Source: Haloterrigena sp. KLK7
Lineage (GTDB): Archaea > Halobacteriota > Halobacteria > Halobacteriales > Natrialbaceae
Direction of reading: 5' to 3'
DNA length: 64,000 nt
Assembly (NCBI RefSeq): GCF_037914945.1
Contig: NZ_CP149787.1
Coordinates: forward strand, 1,984,001 to 2,048,000
Shown: positions 51,055 through 61,536 of the stretch, piece by piece
Layout of the letters: every line of letters begins with the position of its first letter
Numbering within the stretch: the first letter of the stretch is position 1
Made by a program: the position numbers and the translations under genes
Notes under the pieces: generated by a model
What the model was told of the DNA's origin: nothing
The model's database searches: none
The model's input: the letters and a program-made list of their open reading frames with translations, nothing else

Positions 51055-51168
51055 CGGACGCGATCTCGAGCGACGTTCTCGGCGCCTCGACCCGTCGGAC
51101 CGCGCGGTCGGACGCGGCCCGCTGGTGCAGGCAGCATAGGCTTGCCTCGGAGAGCGCCATGGTCTCCC

Positions 51169-53754
51169 ATGAGTGCCACGTTTACCGACGACGATCTCGA
51201 GAAAACCGTCGAGAACGAGTCCGGCGAGGTGATCGGGACCGTCGCGTCCGTCGAAGACGAGACCGCCCGCGTCGAACCCCGGGCCGGCCTCGTCGACTCG
51301 ATCAAGGCCGCCCTCGGCTGGAGCGGGAGCCACGACGACACCGTCGCGATCCACGAGGACGCCGTCGACGAAATCTCGAGCGAGACGATCCGCCTCGAGA
51401 CGGTCGCGGCGAGCGAGACGGCGGCCGAATCCGCGACGGACGAACCGGCGGGCGCCGATGCGACTCCATCGGCAGCGACCGAAGCCGACGACGCGACGGA
51501 ACCGCGGGCTCGGGCGGACGACGAGCCCGCGAACGCCGCGGAACGCGATCCCGACACCGAACTCGCCGAGAACGCGGGCGGGGACACCCGCAGCGAAGCG
51601 GACCAACCGACGGGGAACGCGGCCGATCAGGTCGCCGAGTCCGACGACAGTGCTCCTGACGAGGAGCGCGACCGTTCCAGGTCCGGTAGCGCGTCGTCCG
51701 AGACGACGACACAACCCGCGAAGCCGTCCATGATCGACGATCCGGACGTGGACGAGCCGAGGGACGTTCCCGACGAACCGGAAATGGGTGAGCCGATGAC
51801 TGCTCCCGACGAATCGGACGTGGACGAGCCGGAACCGGCTCCCTCCGAGCCGGATATGGGCGAACCGGTAAACACCCCCGACGATCCGGAGACGAGTGAG
51901 CCGAGAGACGCTCCCGACGGCTGGGAGTCGGACGATCCGATGGACGAATCCGGTGACAGCGATCTCTCCGACGGGACGGACGCGGCCGATACGTCGAGCG
52001 AGGCCGACGTGATCGTCGAACGAGACGAACGGGACGAAGCGACGGATCCGCGAGAAGGGGCCGTCGAAACGGACGACAGAGACGCCGACACGAGCGAGCG
52101 AGCTGCCGAAACAGATGAGACAGACGTCGATATGCCGGCGTCACCCGACGAACTGAGCGAGACTCGAGCCGGCGACTCGTCGGACGAGACGGACGAGACG
52201 GACGGCGCGGGCGTCCAGAACACGCCGGTCGGCGAGGCCAAGTCGGCGCCCGACCACGCCGAGATGGGGGCGCCGGTCGACGACGCCGAAACCGAGGAAT
52301 CGGTCGACGATGCCGAGATCGAGGAACCGGTCGACGACGCCGAAACCGAGGAATCGGTCGACGACGCCGAAACCGAGGAACCGGTCGACGATGCCGAGAT
52401 CGCGGAATCGGTCGACGATGCCGAGATCGAGGAACCGGTCGACGACGCCGAAACCGAGGAACCGGTCGACGATGGCGAGATCGAGGAATCGGTCGACGCC
52501 GACCGCGAAGCGGAGACCGAACCGACTGCGGCGTCGGCGGGGAGCGACACGAACGACGCGAGCGACGACGCGTCGGAATCGACGGCCGAGGAGACGGATC
52601 CGGCCGACGAACTGAATCCCGGCGTCGATCTCGAGGCCGTGGCGGAGTCGACTGACAGCGAGCGTTCCGAGGAACGAGGGCGGACGGAACGCGACTCGTC
52701 CGCGACCGACGGGGACGCCGATATCGCCGATGCGGTCGATACCGGCGTCGACCTCGAGTCGGCCGCGGAAGCGACCACTGGTGCCGACCGCGAGGGATCC
52801 TCGAGCGAAACCGAATCGATGGATCTCACCGACGCGGTCGACACCGGCGTCGATATCGAATCGGTCGCGACGGACGACGCGGCGTCGCGGACCGACGCCC
52901 GTCCGGAGACGGAACTGGATCCCGACGTCGACGCCCGTTCGGGTCCCGAGGCCGATCCGCGGCCGGAGACCGAACTCGAGTCGACGGAGTCGACGGTCGA
53001 CGACGCGGCGCCTCGAGACGACTCGCTGACCGCGGACGAGCGGCAGTCGCAGGCGGACGTCGTTCCCGGCGTCGACATCGAATCCGCCGTCGACGCCGAC
53101 GAGGACGCGAGTTCGGGTCCGGAGATCGATCCGGAGACGCTCGCCGGCCGAGAGACCGAGACCGAGCCGACGGACGGGACGGTCGCCAGAGAGCGCGTCG
53201 ACGACGAGACGGACGTCGACGGCGCGGAGCCGGCGACAGCCGATCGGTCCGATCGATCGAGCTCGCCGTTTGCGGCCGCGATCGCGGCGCAGCGGGCCGC
53301 GATGACCGGCGGGCAAGAGCTGGTCAAGCAGGGTATCGCCGCCCAGCAGGCCGCCGCCCGATCCGCCGTCGAGACGCCGCTGCGCATGCAACAGCAGGGC
53401 CTCGAGGCGACGCAGGCGGCGACCAGCGGCTACTTCGATGTCGTCGGTGCGCTGCTGGGCGGTGGCGCTGGGTCCGATCGTGGCTCGTCCGAGTCGATGG
53501 ACGAGATGGTTACCGAACTCGAGGACGCATCTGCCGAGCTTCCGGCCACCGAGTTCGAGCAACAGCTCGCGGTCCACCTCGAACTGCTCCGATCGATGCA
53601 GACGCAACTCGAAGAGACGGACGACGAGATCGACGACGACGAGATCGACGACGACGCGACCGACGACGACGCGACCGACGAGATCGCCGGCGACCTGCTC
53701 GAGCGACAGATCGCGATCCTCGAGGCGTGTCAGCAGCGGCTGACCGACGACTGA
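51169..53754 (+). CDS. Large acidic PRC-barrel protein with tandem repeats
   Basis: An 861-residue protein. Residues 1-80 form a PRC-barrel-like domain (LEKTVENESGEVIGTVASVEDETARVEPRAG ... VDEISSETIRLE). A very acidic, disordered region of about 600 residues follows. It contains imperfect 12-13-residue repeats near 195-260, eight 9-residue repeats at 370-441, and four copies of a GVD-L/I-E motif at about 484, 524, 560 and 635. The C-terminal region (about 695-780) is a neutral Gln/Ala-rich helix (QRAAMTGGQELVKQGIAAQQ), faintly reminiscent of phasins, then an Asp-rich stretch and a final helix. No membrane helix is seen. Function is unknown. Confidence 0.8.
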   Translation: MSATFTDDDLEKTVENESGEVIGTVASVEDETARVEPRAGLVDSIKAALGWSGSHDDTVAIHEDAVDEISSETIRLETVAASETAAESATDEPAGADATPSAATEADDATEPRARADDEPANAAERDPDTELAENAGGDTRSEADQPTGNAADQVAESDDSAPDEERDRSRSGSASSETTTQPAKPSMIDDPDVDEPRDVPDEPEMGEPMTAPDESDVDEPEPAPSEPDMGEPVNTPDDPETSEPRDAPDGWESDDPMDESGDSDLSDGTDAADTSSEADVIVERDERDEATDPREGAVETDDRDADTSERAAETDETDVDMPASPDELSETRAGDSSDETDETDGAGVQNTPVGEAKSAPDHAEMGAPVDDAETEESVDDAEIEEPVDDAETEESVDDAETEEPVDDAEIAESVDDAEIEEPVDDAETEEPVDDGEIEESVDADREAETEPTAASAGSDTNDASDDASESTAEETDPADELNPGVDLEAVAESTDSERSEERGRTERDSSATDGDADIADAVDTGVDLESAAEATTGADREGSSSETESMDLTDAVDTGVDIESVATDDAASRTDARPETELDPDVDARSGPEADPRPETELESTESTVDDAAPRDDSLTADERQSQADVVPGVDIESAVDADEDASSGPEIDPETLAGRETETEPTDGTVARERVDDETDVDGAEPATADRSDRSSSPFAAAIAAQRAAMTGGQELVKQGIAAQQAAARSAVETPLRMQQQGLEATQAATSGYFDVVGALLGGGAGSDRGSSESMDEMVTELEDASAELPATEFEQQLAVHLELLRSMQTQLEETDDEIDDDEIDDDATDDDATDEIAGDLLERQIAILEACQQRLTDD
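52276..52491 (+). repeat. Eight tandem copies of a 27-bp coding repeat
   Basis: Each unit begins GTCGACGA and encodes nine residues of the form VDDAE, then Thr or Ile, Glu or Ala, Glu, and Ser or Pro. Copies differ at a few synonymous and T/I or S/P positions in an alternating pattern, suggesting amplification of a two-unit block. Being a multiple of three, copy-number change keeps the frame. Confidence 0.9.
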
Positions 53755-53847
53755 AGACGACCGTATCCGTCCCCGTTCGCGTCTTCGAACGGCGCGTGGC
53801 TGAAATGGGAGTCTCCGGCCAATCGCGGCAACGGGGAATTGCCACCC

Positions 53848-54087
53848 CCTCCCCAGCCGATTCGCTCGCTTCATCTGCTCACGGGCGCTGCGGGACGGCG
53901 AAGCCGTCCCGGCAGTCGCGGCGCATAGCGCCGCGCACTGCTCGTTCGCATGGTATGCGGGACCTCCGGTCCCGCACTACTCGCTCATCCCTCGCGCAGC
54001 GTCGGCGATCAGTTCTCGCTGTCGCTCACGGTTCACTCCGTTCACCGTTCGCCTCGCTCGAACGTGATCGACAGCGCGCGCCACCGC
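53848..54087. repeat. Hairpin-rich interspersed repeat, copy 1
   Basis: The 410-nt region 53755-54164 has no gene. It holds an element sharing three blocks with 60555-60692: CTCCCCAGCCGATTC near the left end, TCATCCCTCGCGCAG in the middle, and CAGCGCGCGCCACCGC at the right end. Between the first two blocks there are three perfect hairpins in a row: CGGGACGGC/GCCGTCCCG (53891-53911), CGCGGCGC/GCGCCGCG (53917-53935) and TGCGGGACC/GGTCCCGCA (53956-53976). A fourth weaker one, CGTTCG/CGAACG, precedes the right block. Confidence 0.75.
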
Positions 54088-54164
54088 ACTTAGCCCGCCA
54101 AAGCGACTGGACGAGCAGTGTCTACCGCGGTCACTCGAGAACGAATCGAGGACGGACCGGCCGT

Positions 54165-55007
54165 TCAGTCCGCGGAAATCTCGCAGCTGCCCTCGTAGCT
54201 GACGTCCTCGACCGATTCGATCTCGGGCTCGTCGCCACAGACCGGACAGGTCGGGTTCGACTGGATCGGGACTTCCTCGAAGGTCATGTCCATCGCGTCG
54301 TACATGAGCAGGCGGCCCTCGAGGAGGTCGCCCGTCCCGAGGACGTACTTGACGACCTCGGTGGCCTGAATGCAGCCGACGGTGCCGGGCAGGACGCCGA
54401 GGACGCCGGTCGTGGCGCAGTCGGGGACGGTGCCCGGCTCGGGCGCCTCGGGGAAGATACAGCGGTAACAGGGCGGGGAATCGTCTGTTCCCTCCCCGCG
54501 CTCGTTCGTGAACGTCGTGACCTGCCCCTCGAAGCGGTAGATCGCGCCGTGGGAGAGCGGCGTCCCGGTGAGGACGCAGTGGTCGTTGAGCAGATACCGG
54601 GTCCCGAAGTTGTCGCTGGCGTCGAGAACGACGTCGTAGTCGGCGACCAGTTCGCCGACGTTGGCCGCGGTGAGGCGGGTCTCGTGGGTGTCGACGTCGA
54701 TGTCGGGGTTCAGCGCCGCGACGTAGTCGGCCGCGCTCTCGACCTTCGGGCGGCCGACGTCGCCGTCGCCGTGGACGATCTGGCGCTGCAGGTTCGATCG
54801 CTCGACGACGTCGTCGTCGACGATTCCCAGCCGGCCGATCCCCGCCGCCGCGAGGTACTGGATCGCCGGCGAGCCCAGCCCGCCCGCCCCCACGACGAGC
54901 ACGCTGGCCTCGAGCAGCCGCTGTTGGCCCTCGGGACCGATCTCGTCCATGATCACGTGTCTCGAGTAGCGATCGAGTTGGGTCGCATCGAGGCGGAGGT
55001 CGCTCAT
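54165..55007 (-). CDS. ubaA: E1-like SAMP-activating enzyme UbaA (ThiF/MoeB family)
   Basis: A 280-residue adenylyltransferase that activates the C-terminus of ubiquitin-like SAMP proteins, serving both protein modification and sulfur transfer to tRNA and molybdopterin. ATP-binding motifs are VLVVGAGGLGSPAIQYLA and DDDVVERSNLQRQIVHGDGDVG, followed by VLDASDNFGTRYLLND. The zinc cysteines CYRC and CPVC are present, as is DCATTGVLG with the likely active-site Cys known from Haloferax UbaA. The start at 55007 matches the family N-terminus MSDLRLDATQLDRYSRH. Haloarchaea usually have a single such enzyme. Confidence 0.93.
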   Translation of the reverse strand: MSDLRLDATQLDRYSRHVIMDEIGPEGQQRLLEASVLVVGAGGLGSPAIQYLAAAGIGRLGIVDDDVVERSNLQRQIVHGDGDVGRPKVESAADYVAALNPDIDVDTHETRLTAANVGELVADYDVVLDASDNFGTRYLLNDHCVLTGTPLSHGAIYRFEGQVTTFTNERGEGTDDSPPCYRCIFPEAPEPGTVPDCATTGVLGVLPGTVGCIQATEVVKYVLGTGDLLEGRLLMYDAMDMTFEEVPIQSNPTCPVCGDEPEIESVEDVSYEGSCEISAD

Positions 55008-55192
55008 GGCCGATAGTTGGGCCGAGACCGAGAAAAGTCCGCGGGTCGTCCCAGGGGCGCTGGACCGCCCATCGGACGACTCGAGCGTCGCAGTCGACCG
55101 TCGGTCATCGGTTCGGCGATGGTGTTCGGTGGTCGAGGCAGATCTAGGGGCCAACCCAATCGTTTAATACTGTGGCAGCCATTGACACACTT

Positions 55193-60258: not shown

Positions 60259-60474
60259 ATGGTCTCTGCGAATGGTCGCATTCCGAGGGAGTTACCGACC
60301 CCAGTACGTCTCGGACTCGCTATCGCCCTCATCGGTAGTTTCGCGCTCGCTATGTACACGATGCAACCCTTACTGTGGCTGTTCAGCGTCGTCGCTGTCG
60401 GGTTGACGCTCTACCTGTTCTCTCTGTTTTATCGACTAGTGATCGCCGTCGAAACGATTGCTCGCAAATTGTAA
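60259..60474 (+). CDS. Small two-helix membrane protein
   Basis: A 71-residue protein with a polar start (MVSANGRIPRELPTPVRL), two or three helices (LGLAIALIGSFALAMYTM and LWLFSVVAVGLTLYLFSLFYRLVIAV) and a short basic end. The sequence is lower in G+C than its neighbours. GTATTTGG centred about 27 nt upstream is a possible TATA box. Family not recognised. Confidence 0.65.
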   Translation: MVSANGRIPRELPTPVRLGLAIALIGSFALAMYTMQPLLWLFSVVAVGLTLYLFSLFYRLVIAVETIARKL

Positions 60475-60554
60475 ACGACGCGCAGAGCACAAGACAGTGA
60501 TCCTCCGAAAATACTTCCGCAGTCCGTTCTCGTGGCAGCTGTGAGTTCCACGGT

Positions 60555-60692
60555 CCTCCCCAGCCGATTCACTCACTCACTTCGCTCGTTCGTTCATCCC
60601 TCGCGCAGATTCGTGCCGCGGTTCGTCGCCGGCGAGGACCTCACTTCGTTCGGACCTCGCAGCACTCACCGCGGCACAGCGCGCGCCACCGC
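60555..60692. repeat. Hairpin-rich interspersed repeat, copy 2
   Basis: Shares CTCCCCAGCCGATTC, TCATCCCTCGCGCAG and CAGCGCGCGCCACCGC with the element at 53848-54087, in the same order and orientation, but with different DNA between the blocks. A perfect 9-bp outer stem GTGCCGCGG (60613-60621)/CCGCGGCAC (60669-60677) encloses an inner 6-bp stem GCGAGG/CCTCGC. The rest of 60475-60750 holds no gene. Confidence 0.75.
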
Positions 60693-60750
60693 GTGGTATT
60701 CGTCTGTCGCTCGACTCCCGCTGGAGGGGGTCGAGCAGATTTGAGCGCGC

Positions 60751-61536
60751 CTAACTCCGCAACAGCCCGCCGTCGATCGGGAGCGCGACGCCGTTGACGA
60801 AACTTCCGCGGGGACTCGAGAGCAGCGCCACGACGTCGCCCAGTTCGCTGGGCTCGCCGAGGCGGTCCATCGGGATGTCGCTCGACATGTCCGCCAGCCC
60901 CTCCTCGTAGTCCTCGTAGACGCCGCGCTCGATGTTCGCCTCGATGAGCTCCTCGATGCGGGGCGTCTCGATCGTTCCCGGGAGGACCGCGTTCGCGCGG
61001 ATCTCGGGCGCGAACTCCCGCGAGACCGTCTTGACGAGGCCGATCACGCCGCGGCGCACGGAGTTCGACAGCAGGAGGCCGTCGGCCACCTCGCGGACCG
61101 TTCGGGACGTGATGCAGGTGATCGTCCCGTACTCGGACTCGAGGAGGTGCTCGTGGGCGTTCTCGATCGTCCAGACGACGCTCATCACCAGCAGGTCGTA
61201 GGCCTGGTACCAGTCCTGTTCGTCGGTCTCGAGGAAGGTCGTACTCGGCGGACCGCCCGAGGAGGTGACGAGGTGATCGATCCCGCCGAAGGCGTCGACC
61301 GTCTCGCTGACGAGGTGGGAGACCTCGTCGGGGTCCGTGAGGTCGGTCGGCGTCGCCCGAACCTCGCCGTCGCCGACCTCGGCGAGTTCCTCGCGGGTCT
61401 CCTCGAGGCGCTCCTCGTCGCGTCCGCAGATCATCACGTTCGCGCCCTCCTCGGCCAGGGCCTCGGCGCTCGCGAAGCCGAGGCCGCTCGAGGAGGCCGT
61501 CACCAGTGCGCTGTTCTCGTCGAGTTCGAGGTCCAT
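60751..61536 (-). CDS. Atypical short-chain dehydrogenase/reductase
   Basis: A 261-residue Rossmann protein. The cofactor loop is ALVTASSSGLGFASAEALAEEG with VMICGRDEERL, and the second motif is LVTSSGG where most SDRs have NNAG. At the active site the usual Tyr-x3-Lys is replaced: LLLSNSVRRGVIGLVKTVSREFAP has Ser at the Tyr position and Arg at the Lys position. This SNxxR variant recurs in a known branch of SDRs, so the change is a subfamily feature rather than decay. The reaction is unknown, and the protein may not be a standard reductase. Confidence 0.88.
   Translation of the reverse strand: MDLELDENSALVTASSSGLGFASAEALAEEGANVMICGRDEERLEETREELAEVGDGEVRATPTDLTDPDEVSHLVSETVDAFGGIDHLVTSSGGPPSTTFLETDEQDWYQAYDLLVMSVVWTIENAHEHLLESEYGTITCITSRTVREVADGLLLSNSVRRGVIGLVKTVSREFAPEIRANAVLPGTIETPRIEELIEANIERGVYEDYEEGLADMSSDIPMDRLGEPSELGDVVALLSSPRGSFVNGVALPIDGGLLRS

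Follow-up and report, generated by a model that had tools for sequence, protein, structure and literature searches.

A dispersed element with a covarying, strand-specific fold in Haloterrigena sp. KLK7 and other haloarchaea, a candidate structured RNA of transcript 3' ends

REP and BIME sequences are dispersed, mostly intergenic palindromic repeats that show a convergent bias and form inverted pairs, and REP/RAYT systems carry a conserved tetranucleotide beside the hairpin. Haloarchaea harbor non-coding dispersed repeats of their own, the PATEs and SMRs, which according to the passages on them in PMC3119063 contain palindromes and small inserts, show no target duplication and, in the case of PATEs, have ends resembling IS605-type transposons. 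The main text of a survey that includes archaea (PMC12306157) contains no word that starts with 'Halo' or 'Natr'. Termination sites in Haloferax volcanii are described, in the relevant part of PMC7237163, as a T stretch with the transcript ending at C, and hairpins lie upstream of 503 sites. Candidate structured RNA classes, as presented in PMC2864571, combine conserved sequence with covarying helices.

The element described here resembles each of these systems in part. It is like REP/BIME sequences in its dispersal, intergenic sites, convergent bias and inverted pairs, but has several helices, a length of ~135 nt or more, strand-specific covariation and no Y1/RAYT link that could be found. 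As with PATEs and SMRs, it is a non-coding dispersed repeat with palindromes and small inserts, and shows no clear target duplication at the one site compared base by base, yet it does not occur at the tested Y1/TnpB loci, is shared with a congener at many sites and covaries. It shares with the H. volcanii T-stretch terminators and hairpin 3' ends a position 3' of genes and, in some copies, a structure followed by a T-tract and C, although it is a large conserved multi-helix fold that also lies antisense to its neighbours. Finally, it has the conserved sequence and covarying helices of candidate structured RNA classes, but in ~100 copies per genome, with expandable loops and repeated facing GA steps in one helix (P3). 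No description of it was found in the literature searched, which comprised open-licence papers alone and is therefore weak evidence of absence, and the strings GAGGGATGAGCGA and TCGCTCATCCCTCGC have no occurrence among the open-licence literature matches listed.

The window, a stretch of 64,000 nucleotides of the KLK7 genome, carries one copy at positions 53795-54088 on the minus (RNA-sense) strand, recognised from covariance-model matches and a BLAST family, with approximate ends, and located between two convergent genes whose 3' ends face it. On one side lies a minus-strand ThiF-family (UbaA-like) gene (54165-55154; PF00899, E 6e-82, Pfam on 54168-55013), the product of which has 94% identity to its Haloterrigena salina counterpart, and on the other a plus-strand ORF encoding an acidic protein of 870 aa (51142-53754), for which a Pfam search of 51169-53751 gave no match. 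This ORF carries degenerate DDAE(T/I)EE(S/P)V-type repeats. R1, a covariance model built from 18 short copies, matches the minus strand twice, at 53819-53944 (44.0 bits) and 53944-54090 (37.2 bits), and we take these two matches, which together cover 53819-54090, for a single long copy interrupted by cassettes.

All parts of this copy are given in the minus-strand sense. The conserved 5' end TGCGGTGGCGCGCGCTG (54072-54088) is largely invariant in alignment A1. P2 (53993-54080; helices of the model, placed by hand) consists of a closing stem, P2a (54075-54080 with 53993-53998), and a variable stem, P2b (54065-54072 with 54001-54011), which has GTTC/GAAC inside and is also present in the predicted fold. 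The P2 loop holds an extra tandem-GA hairpin (54024-54052; GC-GA-ACGGT-GA-AC-GGA-GT-GA-ACCGT-GA-GC) that the H. salina ortholog lacks. A conserved junction, CTGCGCGAGGGATGAGCGA (53981-53999), includes the GAT at 53987-53989 that opens P3; together with its enlarged loop, a three-hairpin cassette, P3 spans 53857-53989 and is closed by GAGCGAATC. P4 (53827-53858; GGC-TGGGGA ... TTCCCC-GTTGCC) has a conserved G-rich loop and is followed by a tail (53800-53829) with TTTC at the T-tract position. A second, minus-strand copy at 60526-60695 (R1 103.8 bits), with a P3 that reads GA-AC-GA-AC-GA-GC-GAA-GT-GA-GT-GA-GT-GA, lies downstream of the minus-strand ORF 60751-61536, which by eye is short-chain dehydrogenase-like. 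A short plus-strand ORF of ~71 codons (60260-60474), membrane-like by eye, converges on this second copy, and a similar ORF occurs beside a UbaA-like gene in Natronococcus pandeyae (L068).

An earlier note on this DNA had drawn attention to three hairpins at 53891-53976, each a perfect inverted repeat around a 3-nt loop, and they are present at these places. Hairpin 1 (53891-53911) has 9 bp and a loop that reads GAA on the plus and TTC on the minus strand; hairpin 2 (53917-53935) has 8 bp, an ATA loop and a flanking GCAGT/ACTGC stem that lengthens it in the predicted fold; and hairpin 3 (53956-53976) has 9 bp and the loop TCC, with TGCGGGACC GGA GGTCCCGCA on the minus strand. The window, with a G+C content of 0.60-0.72 (per 2 kb), contains nine hairpins with a 3-nt loop and a perfect stem of 8 bp or more, against a mean of 4.5 and a maximum of 12 in 30 dinucleotide shuffles, and one cluster of three such hairpins within 90 nt, against one across all 30 shuffles. 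In isolation the three hairpins are only mildly improbable for a G+C-rich window, and the strong evidence for them is their location within a repeated, covarying element.

Hairpins of the third type have 16 occurrences in 13 of the 46 KLK7 elements inspected, in versions that are mutually compensated (GGGACC/GGTCCC in eight, GGAACC/GGTTCC in five and GAGACC/GGTCTC in three), 12 of the 16 having a GNA-type triloop on the folding strand. The distinction that had been drawn from plain terminator hairpins is upheld; related copies hold their stems by covariation, and many loops on the folding strand are GNA-type triloops. The note had also held that its proposal would fail if other copies lacked the stems or if these varied without covariation: the stems do covary across related copies, but the hairpin trio is absent from the H. 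salina ortholog and, being an insert in one loop, does not stand as a conserved unit. This ortholog, which lies between the same two genes, is a short form (119.1 bits) without the three hairpins, and the trio is therefore a copy-specific cassette: it enlarges the P3 loop of a single copy of a bigger, dispersed element.

A BLAST search of the KLK7 genome with 241 bp recovered at least 92 pieces (40 of 184 candidates scored), and R1 at least 111 matches that merge to at least 102 copies (150 of 6115 first-look candidates scored), all matches found being on the 3.84-Mb chromosome contig C1. The aligned copies share a short core of ~135 nt, into which hairpin cassettes are inserted in the long copies. 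Wider scans, which scored 11-54 candidates per genome under strict filters and so missed weak copies, gave R1 matches in 44 of 61 genomes of the same family (22 of 29 genera; 0 to at least 54 copies each), the other 17 having no match at E 1e-6, in 114 of 292 genomes of the class (39 of 77 genera, from several families of the order), and in 8 of 196 genomes of the phylum, every one from the same order. No Rfam family reached its gathering score in the window with the Rfam copy searched, and on four element loci this score was reached by tRNA alone, outside the element. In other haloarchaeal families (L292, L305, L307, L316, L321) a second recurring motif, GGTGGGACTGAAAGGGGC-like, replaces the Natrialbaceae tail beyond P4.

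The fold itself is supported by covariation. Pairing holds in 94.6% of cells when 117 matches are aligned, and 25 of the 35 pairs have changed on both sides (574 cells), a result that 0 of 500 shuffles reached; with slid 3' partners, two-sided changes affected no more than 12 pairs (102 cells). The alignment was fitted to the model, which favours structure, but P2a and P4 fall within conserved sequence. The element thus shows the base pairs preserved by two-sided changes that mark structured RNA classes. G-U cells outnumber A-C cells by 493 to 34 over all pairs, by 93 to 3 in P2a and by 228 to 12 in P4, so it is the minus strand that folds. Double changes are nearly absent from P4, which is supported mainly by changes from G-C to G-U. 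Single-sequence folding of the window copy (minus strand -150.7 kcal/mol, z -3.5; plus strand -139.4, z -4.5) does not by such prediction decide the strand, because the plus strand also folds well.

P3 runs between GAU and AUC as GA-NN-GA-NN ... NN-GA-NN-GA, with facing GA steps that alternate with covarying two-base-pair steps. At least one GA-NN unit is present in 93 of the 105 rows that could be parsed, the remaining 12 parsed rows having no GA unit and 12 of the 117 rows being unparsed. The facing NN steps of successive units pair in 90/93, 86/91 and 50/57 cases, whereas permutations gave 75.7, 40.4 and 23.3 on average and at most 81, 50 and 34. The stem is often capped by a GNA triloop, frequent three-base cores being GAA (23), GGA (14) and GCA (6). 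We interpret the facing GA steps as sheared G-A pairs in tandem, a geometry that is inferred. Two GTGGC/GCCAC boxes also occur, for which long-range pairing was considered.

Copies at shared chromosomal sites allow the same pairing to be followed in place, with synteny derived from the flanks and the elements masked. Fifteen of 20 sites sampled from the best-scoring matches of a congener (G028) are syntenic on both flanks and have a KLK7 element between them; of the rest, one is rearranged, two share one flank and two match none of the KLK7 stretches compared. For six other relatives, 20 sampled sites comprised eight syntenic on both flanks, including L256, L257 and L266 in other genera, two on one flank, one rearranged and nine with none. 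Across the 23 both-flank comparisons, which leave out L233/L032 (opposite orientation) and the split copies L255/L028, window 53810-54090/L059 and L251/L187, pairing is retained in 78 of 94 double changes, as compared with 0-6 when the pairing is slid; 72 one-sided changes are still paired, 35 + 15 are broken and one is unpaired in both. A clear case of compensation is L172/L242 versus L248. Syntenic copies have 72% of their paired cells unchanged and non-orthologous copies 61%, and, because this difference is modest, gene conversion from other copies may in part explain the compensation.

Two of the sites compared differ in orientation or order. At L233 (1502-1640) versus L032 (973-1170), one of the 15 G028 sites with synteny on both flanks, the two congeners have single elements that are oppositely oriented, as if they were different halves of an older pair. 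At L163 (KLK7, C1 2196395-2202111), the order of the flanks differs from that of L230 (G028) and L250 (G049), which suggests from the arrangement of the flanking matches that a segment of at least 2 kb between inverted copies was turned round in the KLK7 genome; recombination between the inverted copies would explain such an inversion.

The placement of the copies relative to genes was classed with a home-made gene finder, leaving out the 18 of 102 copies that overlap a predicted ORF. Of the other 84 copies, 44 lie between convergent genes, 18 are sense and 18 antisense between tandem genes, and 4 lie between divergent genes; among the gaps of at least 100 bp in the window 6 of 31 are convergent. 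An earlier gene finder sorted 101 copies in much the same way (46/25/24/6) and left one unassigned. A same-strand gene thus lies upstream of 62 of the 84 copies (44 convergent plus 18 tandem sense). Tandem sense copies are located a median of 77 nt past the preceding stop and 292.5 nt ahead of the next start, and tandem antisense copies a median of 207.5 nt from the preceding stop. At 12-40 nt 3' of the conserved GCC[AG], 38 of 90 copies have TTTC or TTTT, compared with 5/90 in each of two downstream windows, 9/90 upstream and 4/90 for the complementary tract in the same place. By class, the tract is present in 8/14 tandem antisense, 8/16 tandem sense and 14/40 convergent copies.

Our best reading of these patterns, in which belief and doubt are evenly balanced, is that of a structured RNA 3'-end (terminator/insulator-like) element that is selected in place. 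The minus strand would work as RNA near transcript 3' ends, where its compact fold and the T-tract behind it would aid termination, processing or protection of the RNA, chiefly where genes converge; elements in convergent pairs would serve both genes. Covariation far above the two controls, and pairing preserved at syntenic sites despite sequence change, argue for this role, and the T-tract resembles by analogy the termination sites of H. volcanii as T stretch plus C (PMC7237163, in its account of those sites). Several observations count against it. Tandem genes have as many antisense as sense copies between them, which is unexpected for a simple 3'UTR signal; the T-tract is present in fewer than half of the copies, as frequently in antisense as in sense and less so in convergent ones; no promoter-like signal lies upstream; and copy number is patchy among genomes of the family.

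The chief rival takes the element for a mobile or selfish repeat that is not autonomous (of the REP/BIME, MITE or PATE-like kind). Its strand-specific fold would then be an intermediate of single-stranded DNA or of RNA, which an enzyme recognises in trans. The dispersal, the mostly intergenic sites, the patchy number and the lack of orientation bias between tandem genes agree with this, and convergent placement would simply be where insertions do least harm; we consider this explanation unlikely on balance, though it is the strongest of the alternatives. The extragenic dispersal typical of REP/BIME palindromes, often as inverted pairs, is found here, with 84 of 102 copies overlapping no predicted ORF. 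BIMEs form inverted pairs, and the 13 close pairs in the KLK7 genome (gap of 265 bp or less) are likewise all inverted, with their 3' ends facing; three of them include a weak half (34.1, 27-28 and 48.7 bits), and an overlapping opposite-strand match at 3525038 is uncounted. In seven single elements a weak opposite-strand match (~8-19 bits) follows the 3' tail at no more than 400 bp, as compared with one past the 5' end, and some singles may accordingly be what remains of pairs. The arrangement is not universal, since two pairs from another family, L298 1501-1837 (G159) and G180:C2:601516-601854, face away from each other, their 5' ends adjacent with a gap of ~27 nt. Mobility would also account for a pair at L228 that is present in G028 and absent from KLK7 (17 bp versus 494 between the flanking matches), and the cassettes recall the small repeats that insert into PATE palindromes in the examples given in PMC3119063.

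Several results weigh against such a repeat. A base-by-base comparison of the empty and filled site at L228, where the flanks have diverged, revealed no clear target duplication; at a second site, L235, the KLK7 genome has unrelated sequence. The Y1_Tnp (PF01797) matches of the KLK7 genome are located in two places, on C1 and C2, one of them split, and the nearest chromosomal element found lies ~5.6 kb from such a match, so that the suggestion that the hairpins are recognition sites of a Y1 transposase or REP/RAYT system is not borne out. Nor was the proposed association with IS200/IS605 or REP-type Y1 transposases seen: R1 was run at 12 of the 13 loci of three Y1 and ten TnpB matches (the thirteenth overlaps another) and scored 12.1 bits at best, none convincing. 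In the KLK7 genome neither an associated RAYT-like Y1 transposase gene, as in REP/RAYT systems, nor IS605-type transposon ends, as in PATEs and other IS200-IS605 derivatives, accompany the element at these loci. All of the at least 111 KLK7 matches (within the 150 of 6115 candidates scored) are chromosomal, most of the sampled congener sites (15 of 20) are common on both flanks, and a selfish repeat does not predict compensated pairing at shared sites. Furthermore, an exact 20-base core pattern occurs in no viral contig and plasmid records with element matches number only four.

A Y1/REP/IS605 origin was rejected for the lack of association within the KLK7 genome, and viral or plasmid carriage on the core-pattern and plasmid counts. 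A 15-mer from the element matches 65 viral contigs, two of them with weak R1 scores of 20-23 bits. Of the four plasmid records, CP031304.1 (Natrinema thermotolerans, 987 kb) contains six element-like places and the other three one or two.

The 3'-end reading must also be weighed against a role in trans, which we regard as improbable: the copies would give small RNAs or scaffolds processed from read-through transcripts, their number setting dosage and their loops serving as variable targeting hairpins. Highly conserved G-rich and GA-rich segments that adjoin hypervariable loops would suit such molecules, but upstream of the element there is no AT peak or promoter-like signal, and some relatives have no match. 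A promoter belonging to the element was rejected for lack of that AT peak. That the element acts in the chromosome as DNA, whether as a cruciform, a nucleoid site or a recombination site, is very improbable, since the strand-specific fold (G-U far above A-C) is unpredicted by a double-stranded or cruciform role, even if every KLK7 match lies on the chromosome contig with no departure from uniform positions (KS p 0.42), the pairs are convergent (inverted) and one rearrangement has elements at its borders.

Extended to the whole family, the reading as a transcript 3'-end element would define a previously undescribed haloarchaeal class of structured RNA, with an expandable P3 in which facing GA steps and two-base-pair steps alternate, ~100 chromosomal copies in the KLK7 genome, each selected in place, a modular transcript-end or insulator role, and loops that grow by hairpin cassettes; this fuller proposal is offered tentatively, with doubt somewhat outweighing belief. 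If true, a strand-specific fold that covaries at shared sites, with ~100 copies on one chromosome and matches in 39 of the 77 class genera sampled, would be a major non-coding component of such genomes, without a match in the Rfam copy searched; the way in which haloarchaea separate convergent transcripts would become testable; and long tandem G-A runs and GNA triloops could be studied in a natural system within a high-salt cytoplasm.

The neighbours of single copies in low-copy genomes were also compared. The idea that they share a helper or host gene was rejected. Among the 30 loci, strongly similar neighbours come from three same-genus pairs (L199/L200, L204/L207 and L222/L223), and weak similarity (35-40%) is found for L203/L211 and L205/L220. 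At L214 (527-1186) and L224 (680-1339), from different genera, the element adjoins one and the same gene of 219 aa (72% identity), on different sides.
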